A stretch of 20,677 bases of DNA from a virus. Of the stretch, positions 9,606-14,926 are shown in pieces (position 1 is the stretch's first letter; each line of letters starts with the position of its first letter). Made by a program: the position numbers and the translations under genes. The stretch spans positions 1 to 20,677 of IMG/VR virus record IMGVR_UViG_3300020456_000084. The stretch is one strand, 5' to 3'. The notes beneath the pieces are model-generated. The model did not search any database. It was not told where the DNA came from and saw nothing but the letters and a program-made list of their open reading frames with translations.

Positions 9606-9819
9606 ACTGACAACACTAGGTCTTTATCTGGTAAAATTCTTTCAGGTGGTGGTGATGAATTGTATTCATCCCACCAATTGGGACGCTTGTGGTCCTGTAG
9701 AACAATGGTTGATTCCTGAACTTGTCCATGGATGGAAGATTAAGACAGGAGAGATAGTACCTTACCAGACTGAGAAGGACTATCTAAATAGTATCAAAAA
9801 CAATGGCAGTCAATATTGA
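9592..9819 (+). CDS. Hypothetical protein (75 aa)
   Basis: ATG 9592 (or 9595) lies within the Asp-rich end of the previous gene, and the reading frame ends 17 nt inside the next gene. The N-terminus is hydrophobic (LTTLGLYLVKFFQVVVMNC). The middle (HPTNWDACGPVEQWLIPEL) contains W, C and P residues that look like a folded small domain. I chose ATG over an upstream TTG. It fills an otherwise empty gap of about 200 nt, and I do not recognise a family. Confidence 0.55.
   Translation: MMTIELTTLGLYLVKFFQVVVMNCIHPTNWDACGPVEQWLIPELVHGWKIKTGEIVPYQTEKDYLNSIKNNGSQY
9783..9790 (+). promoter_or_regulatory. Possible late promoter variant (TCTAAATA)
   Basis: TCTAAATA differs from NATAAATA at one position and lies 12 nt before the ATG at 9803. 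It is within the coding region of the preceding ORF, so it could be chance. If it is used, the transcript would have a leader of only a few bases. Confidence 0.25.
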
Positions 9820-10666
9820 TCCAATCGGATTGTATGGTGATGATCCAGATTACGAAGATTGGGCTAAAGATTCCTTTGGAAAACAGATGAACCTTGGGTT
9901 CATCTATGAAAATAAATTGTTCTCTCAATATAAAGATGTTGGATTAGTACCTTCTGGATTTACTCCTGCTGGTGCTGACTCAACTGCTGCTGACTTAGAA
10001 TTGTGGACGGGGAAATATGCTTCTAGAAATCAAACACCAAAGACGGGATCTAAGATAAAGATCGAAGTAAAACTAGATCCTAATGCTGATTATGGACAGG
10101 CTAGTTTGAAACATAATGGTTCGTCATGGGTATTATCTGGCAAGAGCACTGCAGAAGCATTGGAGATGAGAAAGCTTCTGAATAATATGAATGTTGTGTC
10201 TGAGATAAACAAAGCTTGGCCTGGACAACCTAATCTTTTTAAATATGCAAATAGTAATCTAGTTCCCGCAGCAGAGAAAGCATACGATCAAGAAACTTTT
10301 AGGAGTTCTTATATTTCTGGATCAGGATTTGCCAGAACCTTTTCTAGTTACTATAGTTCTAAGGGAGTACATTACATTCAGATTGGTGGGTATGGATTAT
10401 ATTCTTTGAATCAAGATCCAAATGGATTGAAGAATCTAGGAGTGACATCTTTTCTCCAATCTGGAGCATCGATGAAACTTAGAATACGTGTCAAAGGATC
10501 TAAATCAAAAGGAACATATCGTTTTTCTACTGCTCTCTTGATGGACAAGCCACCTAGAAGATCTGGATTTGATCTTGATGATGAAGGTGCTTTAGAAACT
10601 TTAAGATGGGATGCTGTTGAGTGTAACAATGCACCGTATCAACTGAAGAACCAGTCACTTGGATAA
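9803..10666 (+). CDS. Putative PD-(D/E)XK-fold nuclease-like protein (287 aa)
   Basis: I do not recognise a named family. The N-terminal third has the order of residues seen in PD-(D/E)XK nucleases: a helix with E36 (GFIYENKLF), a strand with D64 (TAADLELW), a strand with E88-V-K90 (KIKIEVKLD), and Q99 just after (DYGQASL). E-x-K on a beta strand followed by a helix with Q is typical of this fold. The C-terminal half (FRSSYISGSGFARTFSSYY onwards) is beta-rich and ends with RIRVKGSKSKGTYRFSTALL. There is no clear ribosome-binding site, and the start overlaps the preceding ORF by 17 nt. The stop lies just before the ligase-like gene, so the two are probably co-expressed. It could instead be a structural protein. 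Confidence 0.5.
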   Translation: MAVNIDPIGLYGDDPDYEDWAKDSFGKQMNLGFIYENKLFSQYKDVGLVPSGFTPAGADSTAADLELWTGKYASRNQTPKTGSKIKIEVKLDPNADYGQASLKHNGSSWVLSGKSTAEALEMRKLLNNMNVVSEINKAWPGQPNLFKYANSNLVPAAEKAYDQETFRSSYISGSGFARTFSSYYSSKGVHYIQIGGYGLYSLNQDPNGLKNLGVTSFLQSGASMKLRIRVKGSKSKGTYRFSTALLMDKPPRRSGFDLDDEGALETLRWDAVECNNAPYQLKNQSLG

Positions 10667-10699
10667 GTGTCCACACTTCCACTACTGGAGGAGAATCCG

Positions 10700-11881
10700 A
10701 TGTATAATAAGGGTATGAAAAACACACACCTGGAACACCTGGAAGACGAGATCCTCAACCGTGGCAGTGCGGGTGCAGATGATGTCATTTCGGTTCTTCG
10801 TTCAGCAGATGACATTCTGACTGGTAAGTCCAACGATCTTGGTATCACCACCAAGTGGGATGGTGCTCCTGCTGTTGTCTGTGGCACCTGTCCTCAGACT
10901 GGTAAGTTCTTTGTTGGCACCAAGTCTGTCTTCAACAAGACTACTCCTAAGATCTGCTACACAGAAGCAGACATTGATCAGTGGTATCAGGGTGCTCTGG
11001 CATCCAAACTCAAGACCTGCCTTCGGTATCTGTCACAACTGCGCATCATTGGTATTGTGCAGGGTGATCTTCTGTTCACTGACGATGTGATTCCTGGTGT
11101 CATCGGCAAGAACAAGGTTCTTACTTTCACCCCTAACACCATCACCTACACTGTACCTGTTGGTTCTGAAGCTGCTAATCAAATCATGGTAGCAAAGATG
11201 GGTATTGTGTTTCACACTACTTACATCGGTCCTTCTATTCAGACTGCCGAGGTTGTTATTGGCACTCCTGACATCCGTGGTTCTGAGGATGTGTTCGTTG
11301 CTAGTGCTAAGTTTGATGGATACGTGAAAGTGTCTGATGCTCAGATTCGTCACTATCGAGCACTGGTCAATCGTGCTGCTGGTTCTATCAAGCAAGCATC
11401 TAACTTCCTGGACATCTTTAATTCTGGAGAGTCTAGGTTTGTCATGGCAGCAATGTTCAAGCAGTTCTTCAACCAGGTGGTTCGTAAGGGATACATTGTC
11501 CGCAGCACTAAGTATGTTGCCTCAGAATTTGCTAACTTCTATGCTTCTAAGATGGAAAGTGAGATCCAGTCTAAGAAGTCCGATGCGGCAAAGGCTAAAT
11601 ATTTACGGATGAAAACAGATGGACTTAAGTTCATCATAGCAAATGAACGTGCTATCTATTTCACGGTAGCATCTTACCTCAACATTCGATCTGCTAAAAA
11701 GTTTGTCATCGACCAACTTAATAGTGGTGGCACTATCGGCACTTACACAAGGTCCAAGAAAGGGTATCAACGTACTACCCCTGAAGGTTTTGTTCTCGTC
11801 AAGTCTGGTGGTGCTTATAAATTTGTTGATGACAACTTCCGCCGTGCTAATGTCACCGTTGTGAAAAACTGGGATAAATGA
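10700..11881 (+). CDS. Ligase-like covalent nucleotidyltransferase (KxDG family), conserved phage protein
   Basis: ATG 10700 is preceded by GGAGGAG (10687-10693) at ideal spacing, so I prefer it to the in-frame GTG at 10667. The 393-aa protein shows motifs in the order of the DNA/RNA-ligase and capping-enzyme superfamily. TTKWDGAPAV holds motif I KxDG, with K52 as the likely nucleotide-accepting lysine. FFVGTKSVFNK resembles motif Ia, and GIVQGDLLF resembles motif III. TPEGFVLVK (E362-V365) resembles motif IV and AYKFVD (K374) motif V. Known members join RNA or DNA ends or transfer NMP via lysine-NMP. A second DGYVKV occurs before a helical insert. I recall the family from T4-like phages as uncharacterised. 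The stop overlaps the next gene (ATGA), an NMNAT-like enzyme. Confidence 0.65.
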   Translation: MYNKGMKNTHLEHLEDEILNRGSAGADDVISVLRSADDILTGKSNDLGITTKWDGAPAVVCGTCPQTGKFFVGTKSVFNKTTPKICYTEADIDQWYQGALASKLKTCLRYLSQLRIIGIVQGDLLFTDDVIPGVIGKNKVLTFTPNTITYTVPVGSEAANQIMVAKMGIVFHTTYIGPSIQTAEVVIGTPDIRGSEDVFVASAKFDGYVKVSDAQIRHYRALVNRAAGSIKQASNFLDIFNSGESRFVMAAMFKQFFNQVVRKGYIVRSTKYVASEFANFYASKMESEIQSKKSDAAKAKYLRMKTDGLKFIIANERAIYFTVASYLNIRSAKKFVIDQLNSGGTIGTYTRSKKGYQRTTPEGFVLVKSGGAYKFVDDNFRRANVTVVKNWDK

Positions 11882-13065
11882 AGAGTTTTACTAGATTCCT
11901 TTCAGAAACAGTTACCCAAGCAGCCACCCAAGCCAAGAGATTAGGTCTCAAAGGTGATGGACATGGCGGGTGGGTTAACGCTCAGGGTTCAACCGTTGCC
12001 AGAACTGTCGATGGTAAGTTGGTTTTTTCTAGTGGTAGGAGACCGTCAACAGGAACTGACCCAGAAAAACCAGGTGCTGCTGCAAGACAAGCAGTTCCCG
12101 ATGAAGCACCTGCTGCTCAAGGAGGAGAACAACCACAACAGCAGGAACCAGAACCAGAACAGGAAGTTGAGAAGACTAGAGGTACAGTTACTCTTGGTTT
12201 CGGTCGTTTCAATCCACCAACTGCCGGACACGAAAAACTGTTAGATAAGATTCAAGATACTGCAGAGGGTGAACAGTATTATGTTTACCCATCCCATAGT
12301 CAGGATGCCAAGAAGAATCCATTAGATTCTGAGACTAAGGTGCAGTTCATGAAGCAGATGTTCCCTGCTCATGCCAATTCGATTGTATATGATTCATCGA
12401 TTAAAACTATTTTAGATGCATTGAAGCAAGCTGATGTCGAAGGATATGCCTCTGTCAATATCGTTGTTGGTGCTGACAGACAGAAAGAATTTGAGAACCT
12501 CGCAAACAAATACAACGGTCAACTCTATAATTTTGACCAGATTAACGTCATCTCTGCAGGGGAACGGGATCCCGATGCTGAAGGGGTCGAGGGTATGTCT
12601 GCTTCGAAACTTAGAAAGTTAGTTGCAGATGGTGATGCAGAAGGATTTGCTGCTGGTTTGCCTAAAGGTGTGAAACCAGATCTGGCAAAGAAACTGTATG
12701 CTACTCTTGCCAAGAGCATGTCTGTCAAGGCAGAGACCTGGGAGATTGCACCTAAGTTTGATTGGAAGAACCTGCGTGAGAATTATATTGCAGGTAAGGT
12801 ATTCAATGTTGGTGCTCTGGTTGAGAGTCTGAATACTGGAATGATTGGTAGAGTTATTCGTAAGGGTGCTAACCATATCATTGCCGTCACTAAGGAAGGA
12901 CTGATGTTCAAGTCCTGGATTCGTGATCTTACAGAAACATTTACAGACAAGTCTGGTGTACCTGCATCCCAACGTGGAATGGGAACAGATTCATATCGCA
13001 ACTATGTTACTGGATTATCAGCAGAAGCAAAACTTAAGTCTCTGATAAATAGAAACAAGAAATAA
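11878..13065 (+). CDS. NMNAT-like nucleotidyltransferase with an N-terminal capsid-targeting-like peptide
   Basis: This 395-aa protein has three parts. Residues 1-10 (MKSFTRFLSE) match the T4 internal-protein capsid-targeting peptide pattern (MKTYQEFIAE in T4 IPIII), which is cut by gp21 after I/L-x-E. Residues 14-55 form a small Gly-rich domain (KRLGLKGDGHGGW), followed by a Pro/Gln/Glu linker up to about residue 98. From residue 103 a Rossmann-like nucleotidyltransferase domain begins. FGRFNPPTAGH supplies the T/HxGH motif (T115-H118), GADR lies at 198-201 and MSASKLRK (240-247) is the ISSTxxR-like motif. Such enzymes adenylylate NMN or similar substrates. The C-terminal region after about 275 is unassigned. 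Start overlap (ATGA) ties it to the ligase-like gene. Confidence 0.8.
   Translation: MKSFTRFLSETVTQAATQAKRLGLKGDGHGGWVNAQGSTVARTVDGKLVFSSGRRPSTGTDPEKPGAAARQAVPDEAPAAQGGEQPQQQEPEPEQEVEKTRGTVTLGFGRFNPPTAGHEKLLDKIQDTAEGEQYYVYPSHSQDAKKNPLDSETKVQFMKQMFPAHANSIVYDSSIKTILDALKQADVEGYASVNIVVGADRQKEFENLANKYNGQLYNFDQINVISAGERDPDAEGVEGMSASKLRKLVADGDAEGFAAGLPKGVKPDLAKKLYATLAKSMSVKAETWEIAPKFDWKNLRENYIAGKVFNVGALVESLNTGMIGRVIRKGANHIIAVTKEGLMFKSWIRDLTETFTDKSGVPASQRGMGTDSYRNYVTGLSAEAKLKSLINRNKK
13044..13051 (+). promoter_or_regulatory. Candidate late promoter (GATAAATA)
   Basis: GATAAATA fits NATAAATA exactly and lies 26 nt before the ATG at 13077, with a predicted start near 13057. It sits inside the last codons of the NMNAT-like gene. 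The spacing to a start codon makes it a reasonable late promoter for the EF-hand gene. Confidence 0.5.
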
Positions 13066-13076
13066 ATCTAAGTAAG

Positions 13077-13634
13077 ATGTCTGATAGTTTTATTCAGGAA
13101 AATTCTGAACTCATCATGCTGCGTGCGATGTCCAACGTCTTCGTTGAGAAGATGGATCCTGTTGGACAGGAAGATGGTGATGTAGATAATGATGGTGATA
13201 AGGATAAGTCTGATAAGTATCTGCTGAAGCGTCGTAAGGCAATCGGTGATGCAATCTCGCGTAAAAAAAAAGTAACGGAGGGTGTGGTTGCGACCACTGA
13301 TGAGGACGAGAAGGAAGTAACTGAGAAGAATGTAAAGAATAAAGTCACTATCAATCCTGAAATGAAGGAAGGGTATGATAAGCCTGACGAGAAGTTGAAG
13401 ACTGATCGTGATATGTTTAATGTTCCTAAGGATGAGCAGAAGGCAGCACGTAAGAGAATTCTTGCTAAGGCATTAGCAAAGAGAAAGGAAAAGGGTATCA
13501 AGGAAGCAACCTATCCTTCAGACTTTAGGAATCCTGATGGTTCTAAAAGATCTGTTGCCAGGAAAAAGGATGGTATGCCTAAGCAACATGACGAGCCCAC
13601 AAGGGGTGGTCGTAGAAAGACTGTTGACGAATAG
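13077..13634 (+). CDS. EF-hand-like, highly charged phage protein (185 aa)
   Basis: Residues 35-46 (DVDNDGDKDKSD) form a complete 12-residue EF-hand or dockerin-type calcium loop, with Asp at positions 1, 3, 5, 7, 9 and 12 and Gly at position 6. It is flanked by VGQEDG and by basic KYLLKRRKAIG. The rest is extremely rich in Lys, Glu and Asp, with almost no hydrophobic core, and is probably disordered or coiled. This composition resembles phage prohead-core or internal proteins. Only one full loop is present, so a paired EF-hand is not supported. It probably binds Ca2+ or Mg2+ within the virion or during assembly, but this is inference. Confidence 0.75.
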   Translation: MSDSFIQENSELIMLRAMSNVFVEKMDPVGQEDGDVDNDGDKDKSDKYLLKRRKAIGDAISRKKKVTEGVVATTDEDEKEVTEKNVKNKVTINPEMKEGYDKPDEKLKTDRDMFNVPKDEQKAARKRILAKALAKRKEKGIKEATYPSDFRNPDGSKRSVARKKDGMPKQHDEPTRGGRRKTVDE

Positions 13635-13663
13635 TTAAAAAAACATTATTGATGCTATATAAT
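13635..13663 (+). promoter_or_regulatory. Possible sigma70-type promoter (TTAAAA-17-TATAAT)
   Basis: A perfect TATAAT lies at 13658-13663, in the short gap before the 65-aa gene. The best -35 at 17-nt spacing is TTAAAA (13635-13640), with four of six matches. The region is AT-rich, so chance occurrence is possible. Transcription would begin near 13670. Confidence 0.35.
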
Positions 13664-13686
13664 GATGAATATATTCGGTGAAAGTT

Positions 13687-13884
13687 ATGTTAGCATTTCT
13701 GCTTCCCTTAGCATCTAAGATTGTTGATGCTGCGATTTCCAAGATTCCTGATGATGCGGAACTTGGTGAAAAGTTGATTGAAATCTGCCTGCACATTCTT
13801 GGCAAAGCTGTAAAGCTGACCAAAACTGATGCAGATGATAAGCTCCTTGAGGCTGTTGCTTCTGCTATCAAAAATCGGGAATGA
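13687..13884 (+). CDS. Small conserved protein with hydrophobic N-terminus (65 aa)
   Basis: ATG 13687 is preceded by GGTGA (13676-13680) at good spacing. An in-frame GTG at 13678 overlaps this site and is less likely. The N-terminus MLAFLLPLASKIVDAAISKI is hydrophobic and could be a membrane-associated amphipathic helix. The remainder is two charged helices (LGEKLIEICLHILGKAVKL and DADDKLLEAVASAIK). The size and the LLPLASKI pattern recall small holin-like phage proteins, but one hydrophobic helix is not enough to call a holin. Confidence 0.65.
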   Translation: MLAFLLPLASKIVDAAISKIPDDAELGEKLIEICLHILGKAVKLTKTDADDKLLEAVASAIKNRE

Positions 13885-13889
13885 TTCCC
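13877..13889 (+). repeat. Perfect 13-nt palindrome at the end of the 65-aa gene
   Basis: GGGAAT (13877-13882) and ATTCCC (13884-13889) are an exact inverted repeat around a single G. The stop codon TGA (13882-13884) sits in its centre. No T tract follows, so it is a poor terminator. It lies only 3 nt upstream of the late promoter TATAAATA and could be an operator or a chance palindrome. Confidence 0.4.
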
Positions 13890-13892
13890 TAG

Positions 13893-13900
13893 TATAAATA
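13893..13900 (+). promoter_or_regulatory. Consensus T4-type late promoter (TATAAATA)
   Basis: TATAAATA is identical to the T4 late promoter -10 element and lies 33 nt upstream of the structural gene's ATG at 13934, with a predicted start near 13906. Late promoters of this kind need the phage sigma factor gp55 and the sliding clamp. It is the clearest late promoter in the window. Confidence 0.8.
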
Positions 13901-13933
13901 ATCTGTAGATAAAACGTAATTGCGAGTTAAGAC

Positions 13934-14926
13934 ATGGCTCTCTGGGGTAACGACGCAAACATCCAGACTTTTGGAACGATCACCATTTCCGGTAATACTA
14001 TCACTGGTACTGGTACAACCTTTACTACTGATGTAGAAGTTGGACAGGTCATCCGAATGGGTGTGCGAGGAGGAGTTGGAACATATTATGGTGACGCAGT
14101 AATCACAGCTGTTGCCAGTAATACTTCCTTGACTGTTGGTTCAACTGCTGGTTTGAACCCTGCTGCATTTGGTGCTGGTAGCACCAGTTATGTGGTTGAT
14201 GAGTCTCCAAAATCTGCGGTTTTGGATCACATGTATAGTCAGAAGCATGATACTGAACCGTCATATAGAACGATTGCAGAAGCAACTGCCAGTGAGACCG
14301 TTGCCATTGGTACTCAAGCAATTGGAATCAATGAGTCTGTTGCCACTCTGAATCTGACTGTTGGTGGACATTCAAGACAAGTTCTTGTTCACGATGGTGA
14401 TGTCATTCTCCTTGCTGGTGTCGGTACTGCACTTGCTAGCATCGACCAGACTGCTGGTGTTGGAACAAGTGTTCTCTCAGTTGTAGCACCTCCTGGTGTT
14501 TCTGGTGGTGACACTGTTGATGTTGAAGTTGGTGGTATTGATGTTTCGGCAACGATCTCTAGTATCGGTTCTACAACCGTAAGTCTTGCCTCTACTATTT
14601 CCTCTGCTATTTCTGCAGGCACTCAACTGAACTTTGGAAGTGACAACGTTATCTCCCTCGCATCTGGTCTGACTGCTCAGATCACTGCTGGTGATAACCT
14701 TGAGTTCCAAGCACTTGCTGGTGGATACGATAGAATTGTCTATGGTATCTCTACTTCTACCTCTGGTAATGATACCCAGTATCAGGGTGTCGGTCACCAA
14801 GGATGGGTTGGTGTTACTACATACATTGATATGCACGGTAACTTGAGAGTCAAGAAAGAAACTCTGGTTGCTATGTCTGGAATCTCCACTGGTGAGTTCG
14901 GTATCAACTATCCAACTGATGTCTGA
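13934..14926 (+). CDS. Virion structural protein (MALWGN family)
   Basis: The 330-aa protein starts MALWGNDANIQTFGTITISG, a beginning I recognise from conserved structural proteins of T4-like cyanophages. It is rich in Thr, Ser, Gly and Val with alternating beta-strand patterns (TGTGTTFTTDVEVGQVI, then YYGDAVITAVASNTSLTV). The central part (about 150-250) is low in charge and built of repeated V/T/S strand motifs. The C-terminus (YIDMHGNLRVKKETLVAMSGI) is typical of the family. No membrane segment or enzyme motif is seen. It has its own perfect late promoter, as expected for a virion component lying among replication genes. Its exact place in the particle is not known to me. Confidence 0.8.
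   Translation: MALWGNDANIQTFGTITISGNTITGTGTTFTTDVEVGQVIRMGVRGGVGTYYGDAVITAVASNTSLTVGSTAGLNPAAFGAGSTSYVVDESPKSAVLDHMYSQKHDTEPSYRTIAEATASETVAIGTQAIGINESVATLNLTVGGHSRQVLVHDGDVILLAGVGTALASIDQTAGVGTSVLSVVAPPGVSGGDTVDVEVGGIDVSATISSIGSTTVSLASTISSAISAGTQLNFGSDNVISLASGLTAQITAGDNLEFQALAGGYDRIVYGISTSTSGNDTQYQGVGHQGWVGVTTYIDMHGNLRVKKETLVAMSGISTGEFGINYPTDV

Follow-up and report, generated by a model that had tools for sequence, protein, structure and literature searches.

Is a nucleotidyltransferase carried in the heads of T4-like cyanophages, and if so, what takes it there? The question is raised by an ORF at 11878-13065 of IMGVR_UViG_3300020456_000084, an IMG/VR virus contig of 20,677 bases that was analysed over its whole length and is referred to below as the window. 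The ORF opens with MKSFTRFLSET, and the initial annotation had aligned its first ten residues with the peptide that targets the internal proteins (IPs) of T4 to the prohead, the capsid-targeting sequence (CTS).

Gene context

The window has a gene order of the T4-like cyanophage type, namely gp43, uvsX, gp41, mazG, the cluster at 9803-14926, gp61, nrdA and nrdB (features in Table 1). As it is a 20.7-kb genome fragment without head genes (gp21 and gp23 included), these two genes of the window phage are not visible. The ATG of the tagged ORF overlaps the stop of the upstream DUF6267 gene (ATGA). The annotated GTG start of that gene is doubtful, and translation may in fact begin at the ATG at 10715 (MKNTHLEHLEDE), which fits the homologues. 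Its product contains a KWDG stretch (ITTKWDGAPAV), which we take to resemble motif I as found in RNA ligases and other covalent nucleotidyltransferases. The window's own DUF6267 protein is untagged and relatives with a CTS occur at three IMG/VR loci (L175, L215, L225). In S-PM2 DUF6267 is fused to the cytidyltransferase, with the catalytic domain behind it and no tag.

In S-SCSM1 the genes flanking the NMNAT gene bear the label virion protein, and the product of 13077-13634 is probably a virion protein as well. Its DGDVDNDGDKDKSDKYL stretch is a calcium-loop-like repeat, and it matches phrog_38880, as do three of the tagged proteins from the IMG/VR scan described below. A search for late promoters recovered TATAAATA once, with near-matches at chance level, and does not fix the timing of expression; TCTAAATA at 9783, directly ahead of the cluster, is only suggestive as a promoter signal.

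Table 1. Features of the gene cluster and of the tagged enzyme (positions in the window).
Feature	Position	Strand	Evidence
First gene of the cluster	9803..10666	+	phrog_26930
DUF6267 upstream partner gene, without CTS	10667..11881	+	DUF6267 E=2.6e-112
Tagged nucleotidyltransferase ("cytidyltransferase", T4-GC190 family), 395 aa	11878..13065	+	ATG start; PF01467, phrog_395
Putative CTS MKSFTRFLSE, residues 1-10	11878..11907	+	Comparison with T4, conservation
Second leader module, residues 15-52 (A..AKRLGLKGDGHGGW...VARTVDGKLVF)	11920..12033	+	Sequence comparison
Pro/Glu/Gln linker, residues 53-96	12034..12165	+	pLDDT <50 over 53-96
Catalytic domain, residues 101-280	12178..12717	+	AlphaFold2 high pLDDT; Foldseek; invariant residues
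Motif FGRFNPPTAGH	12199-12231	+	(Nearly) invariant in homologues
Motif SASKLR	12598-12615	+	(Nearly) invariant in homologues
Small C-terminal beta domain, residues 297-353	12766..12936	+	phrog_4808 and phrog_22379 matches; moderate-confidence strands
Downstream gene with DGDVDNDGDKDKSDKYL stretch	13077..13634	+	S-SCSM1 gene at same position labelled virion protein

Identity of the enzyme

The encoded protein matches PF01467 in Pfam (E=1.2e-5) and phrog_395 in PHROG (E=7e-98), and homologues occur in 558 phage records; among cyanophages this "cytidyltransferase" family bears the gene-cluster name T4-GC190. An AlphaFold2 model is confident over residues 101-280 and poor at 1-11, where the tag is modelled as a low-confidence helix, and at 53-96, a stretch that is probably disordered. 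The nucleotidyltransferase fold is accompanied by the (T/H)xGH and SxSxxR motifs. Thus, the superfamily implied by the earlier name NMNAT was borne out by fold and motifs, but NMNAT itself was not singled out: the best Foldseek matches are CoaD (PPAT; 5.6e-6) and, about equally, NadD (1.1e-5), so a role in NAD metabolism is just one option. On the modelled structure the protein would be an adenylyl- or cytidylyltransferase, for which "NMNAT-like" is a fair label. Sequence searches against solved structures returned weak matches only, rejected as spurious (peptidoglycan-associated lipoprotein, E 0.03).

The N-terminal peptide as a probable T4-type CTS

In the T4 record, IPII and IPIII start with MKTYQEFIAEA, IPI with MKTFKEFTSTTTPVSTITEA and the product of gene 61.1 with MKTFKEFIKED; since the latter has Phe at position 4, Phe4 of the window peptide is also T4-like. 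Mutagenesis of the T4 CTS has assigned targeting mainly to residues 4 and 7, and processing to residues 8 and 10 (PMC9026906). The window peptide, which occupies residues 1-10 counted from the start codon, has an aromatic residue at 4 (F4), Phe at 7 (F7), a residue of the I/L class at 8 (L8) and E10, and so agrees with the T4 CTS at all positions known to matter. The alignment proposed in the initial annotation is therefore confirmed, apart from its statement that Alt carries the ten-residue peptide, which is wrong: the Alt propeptide has 7 residues (PMC9026906). A gp21-type cut is predicted after E10, between 11907 and 11908; the uncut N-terminus would yield MKSFTR / FLSETVTQAATQAK and the cut one would begin TVTQAATQAK.

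The machinery for such a cut is kept in related phages. The gp21 proteins of S-CREM2 and S-SCSM1 align with T4 gp21, conserved H-P and SSRG stretches included, and the T4 gp23 cleavage site GSFLTE|A aligns with TGLLTE|A in S-CREM2 and GSFLAE|A in S-SCSM1. At its cut T4 gp23 reads FGSFLTEA, the same core as that of the CTS. Taken as a putative T4-type CTS, the window peptide is well supported by its conserved determinants, by the tag on unrelated virion enzymes (see below) and by this machinery.

T4 gene 61.1 (L032; NC_000866 18966-19130, minus strand) encodes a 54-aa acidic protein whose start is a full match to the CTS, making it a candidate unrecognised internal protein.

Conservation of the tag in homologues

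Homologue N-termini were aligned, as proposed at the outset, from 79 loci comprising 48 distinct N-termini. M1, K2, F4, F7 and E10 are invariant in 48 of 48, position 8 is L, I or F, and positions 3, 5, 6 and 9 vary. Adding the diverged enzymes of S-CREM2 and S-CRM01 leaves the same five residues invariant. The codons at positions 2, 4, 7 and 10 show synonymous variation among homologues, indicating that selection acts on the protein. Homologues lacking the pattern, named in the initial annotation as grounds for refutation, do exist, but close homologues keep the tag and it is absent only from remote or fused ones, namely the remote homologues of P-HM1, Syn1 and a jumbo coliphage and the S-PM2 fusion. 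In S-T4 (NC_048049, 98932-99984) the annotated start of the cytidyltransferase is too short, and a tagged ATG (MKNFLAFITE) lies upstream at 100044.

After the tag, most homologues carry a second module, A..AKRLGL..DGHGGW....VAKT..GKL.F. Across 16 genomes, a search for it outside the enzyme family returned only the kinase and the Cas9-annotated protein of S-CREM2 together with the ORF128 product and the kinase of S-CRM01; its presence on unrelated tagged proteins marks it as a part of the leader common to them. The cytidyltransferases of S-CREM2 and S-CRM01 lack this module, though both retain the CTS.

Controls against chance resemblance

The strict tag pattern, MK-x-[FY]-x-x-F-[ILMV]-x-E, was searched as a DNA pattern and occurs once in the window and not at all in 100 dinucleotide shuffles of it. 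The proposed search of whole genomes for further tagged starts gave 17 matches in 16 phage records (3.05 Mb), against 0 for the reversed pattern. In T4 the matches are IPII, IPIII and 61.1; none was found in the T7-like P-SSP7, the non-T4 S-CBWM1 or a 373-kb jumbo phage. The P-HM1 match among the 17 was set aside as spurious, since the frame it opens is only 18 codons long. Across the whole IMG/VR collection, a version of the tag with Gln at position 6 gave at least 120 matches versus 21 for a control with permuted codons and identical composition, which is thus at least 5.7-fold rarer. ORFs of at least 50 aa were opened by 76 of 80 tag matches (among the matches listed), compared with 9 of 21 control matches. 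The resemblance of MKSFTRFLSE to the T4 CTS is not due to chance.

Virion proteomes and other tagged proteins

Members of the enzyme family have been found in virions by mass spectrometry in S-SCSM1 (PMC9602691), S-SZBM1 (PMC9146016) and S-CREM2 (PMC10665884), and T4-GC190 was detected in S-SM1 virions and listed as not detected in those of S-PM2 (PMC3037559). The virion-found enzymes of S-SM1, S-SCSM1 and S-CREM2 carry the strict tag, and that of S-SZBM1 starts with MRFRQFIIEA, a form one residue shorter. The contrast between these tagged enzymes and the untagged S-PM2 fusion fits a CTS, but weakly, because genuine structural proteins, too, escaped detection in that early study of S-PM2. The particles were CsCl-purified, and the authors of two of the papers allow for carry-over (PMC9602691, PMC10665884); for the nucleotidyltransferase family the proteome authors left cargo versus contaminant undecided. 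That the tag is shared with the T4 CTS is a reason to read the enzyme as cargo. In S-CBWM1, a non-T4 phage with published virion NMNAT and kinases, neither a tag nor a homologue was detectable with the window protein as query, which is neutral for this reading.

Association of the tag with virions was evaluated in S-CREM2 by comparing its 218 annotated CDS with the 52 virion proteins listed in the publication. Of the 218 ORFs, the strict tag heads 3 (cytidylyltransferase, SAM hydrolase and an APH/ChoK-like kinase with a GTG start), all three in the virion (p=0.013), and these are the very enzymes reported as its virion "regulatory" proteins (PMC10665884). The core motif [FYW]xxF[ILMVF]xE occurs 9 times, 4 of them starting exactly at residue 4 (position p=3e-8), and these four all belong to virion proteins (p=0.003). 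With a relaxed motif, all 5 ORFs so marked are virion proteins (p=7e-4), a descriptive figure only, as the motif was defined after looking. Tag variants are present in two further virion-detected proteins, ORF13 (MKDLHSFLTE) and the Cas9-annotated ORF12 (RFASFMAEA, residues 18-26). In S-SCSM1, 1 of 2 tagged proteins is labelled as virion protein, an association that is not significant alone (p=0.29); the other, gp030 (106 aa), bears no such label. The virion kinase of S-CRM01, known from a report as cited in PMC10665884, starts with MISFDQFLSE. Many virion proteins have no tag.

Among the 120 IMG/VR matches listed, 44 belong to the enzyme family, 30 to a family of ~104 aa, 3 to DUF6267 and 43 to others, including SAM lyase, a zeta-toxin-like kinase, DUF5661 and further nucleotidyltransferases. 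The ~104-aa family (MKSFQQFLSESITINGDFNGTLNVGG) has a perfect CTS and is encoded near terL (S-SCSM1 gp030, S-T4 gp186; L014, L024, L250 and about 30 IMG/VR loci). One further tagged ORF bears a weak resemblance to an ADP-ribosyltransferase, below the Pfam cut-off (L179:897-1478); another looks like a zeta-toxin-like P-loop kinase whose tail is nucleotidase-like (L182:7824-9002). In those at L213 and L219, inspection by eye suggests a lysozyme-like stretch (DTVGHGHL) and a stretch resembling an HEXXH metalloprotease. The S-CREM2 protein annotated as Cas9/Csn1 and found in the virion (OR473000, 7704-10313, minus strand) combines the CTS core with the DGHG module at its N-terminus; a Pfam search of it gave no match, and the Cas9 label looks doubtful.

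Proposed route and alternatives

It is likely that the peptide targets the enzyme to the capsid and is then cut off. The F4/F7 face would bind the prohead core during prohead formation, drawing the enzyme inside, and a gp21-type protease would cut after E10 (L-x-E|T), leaving a 385-residue enzyme free in the head. Packaged with the DNA, this enzyme would most likely enter the cyanobacterium at infection, a delivery that we consider probable. There, the adenylyl- or cytidylyltransferase domain could act on a small nucleotide or cofactor (NMN, phosphopantetheine or similar).

Less probable, though the most serious alternative, is that the CTS is real and the enzyme enters the prohead, yet has its role in head assembly alone or never leaves the capsid. 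Particle association is the sole measurement, and in T4, core proteins that have entered the prohead are for the most part degraded or stay in it (PMC9026906). Delivery is favoured by the intact active-site signature of the enzyme, by the host-directed nature of other tagged proteins (e.g. SAM lyase) and by the T4 IPs and Alt, which are delivered. We regard as improbable that the conserved N-terminus is a helix with another purpose, such as enzyme assembly or membrane or partner binding, and that virion detection is due to the carry-over allowed by the authors of the two proteome papers: a helix is indeed predicted, with low confidence, but unrelated proteins start with this ten-residue pattern too, and in S-CREM2 it picks only virion proteins detected by mass spectrometry. 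Chance, or simple ancestry in one enzyme family, to which about a third of the listed scan matches belong, is hardly credible, being already contradicted by the shuffled, reversed and permuted controls, by the ORFs opened and by the tag on unrelated proteins.

Beyond this enzyme, we lean slightly towards a more general reading of targeting by the CTS, in which one modular leader (the CTS, often followed by GL..DGHG) would serve as a general address by which the heads of marine T4-like phages are loaded with many host-directed enzymes unrelated to one another. The cargo would include nucleotidyltransferases, SAM lyase, protein/APH-like kinase, the Cas9-annotated protein, zeta-toxin-like kinase, GNAT acetyltransferase and DUF6267. 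If so, the set of proteins injected by these abundant viruses would be partly predictable from N-termini, and the injected-effector strategy of T4 would hold also for viruses that infect the ocean's main photosynthesizers. Metabolic or regulatory enzymes turn up repeatedly in cyanophage virion proteomes, and the tag offers a mechanism for their presence and a quick way to screen sequences for further cargo, and it tells exactly which peptide to seek in mass-spectrometry data that already exist. Presence of the family in virions was already known; the open-literature papers on the virion enzyme of these cyanophages make no mention of a targeting peptide, and no earlier report linking it to the T4 CTS in cyanophages was found in the open-licence literature.

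Comparison with known systems

The window enzyme belongs to the same T4-GC190 family as the virion NMNAT/cytidylyltransferases of S-SM1, S-SCSM1, S-SZBM1 and S-CREM2, and those of S-SM1 and S-SCSM1 align with it from residue 1. It resembles CoaD (PPAT) and NadD/NadM in fold and in the (T/H)xGH and SxSxxR motifs, but identity is low (11-19%) and the window enzyme has extra leader and C-terminal domains.

With the CTS of T4 IPI-III it shares the ten-residue pattern MK-x-aromatic-x-x-F-[IL]-x-E, placed right at the N-terminus, and a small residue after the predicted cut, and a gp21-type protease occurs also in phages related to the window phage. The T4 IPs are small, at about 8-20 kDa, and have no known enzyme fold, whereas the putative cargo in the window is an enzyme of 395 aa that carries another N-terminal module besides the tag, in a phage whose host, judged by kinship of the phage, is a marine cyanobacterium. 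Its mature part, a PF01467 enzyme, has no homology to the mature IPI-III proteins; only the tag is common to them, so the enzyme is not an IP by descent. Compared with Alt, the injected ADP-ribosyltransferase of T4, it has a different propeptide and no homology, but if it is injected, the two would be alike as enzymes carried in the head.
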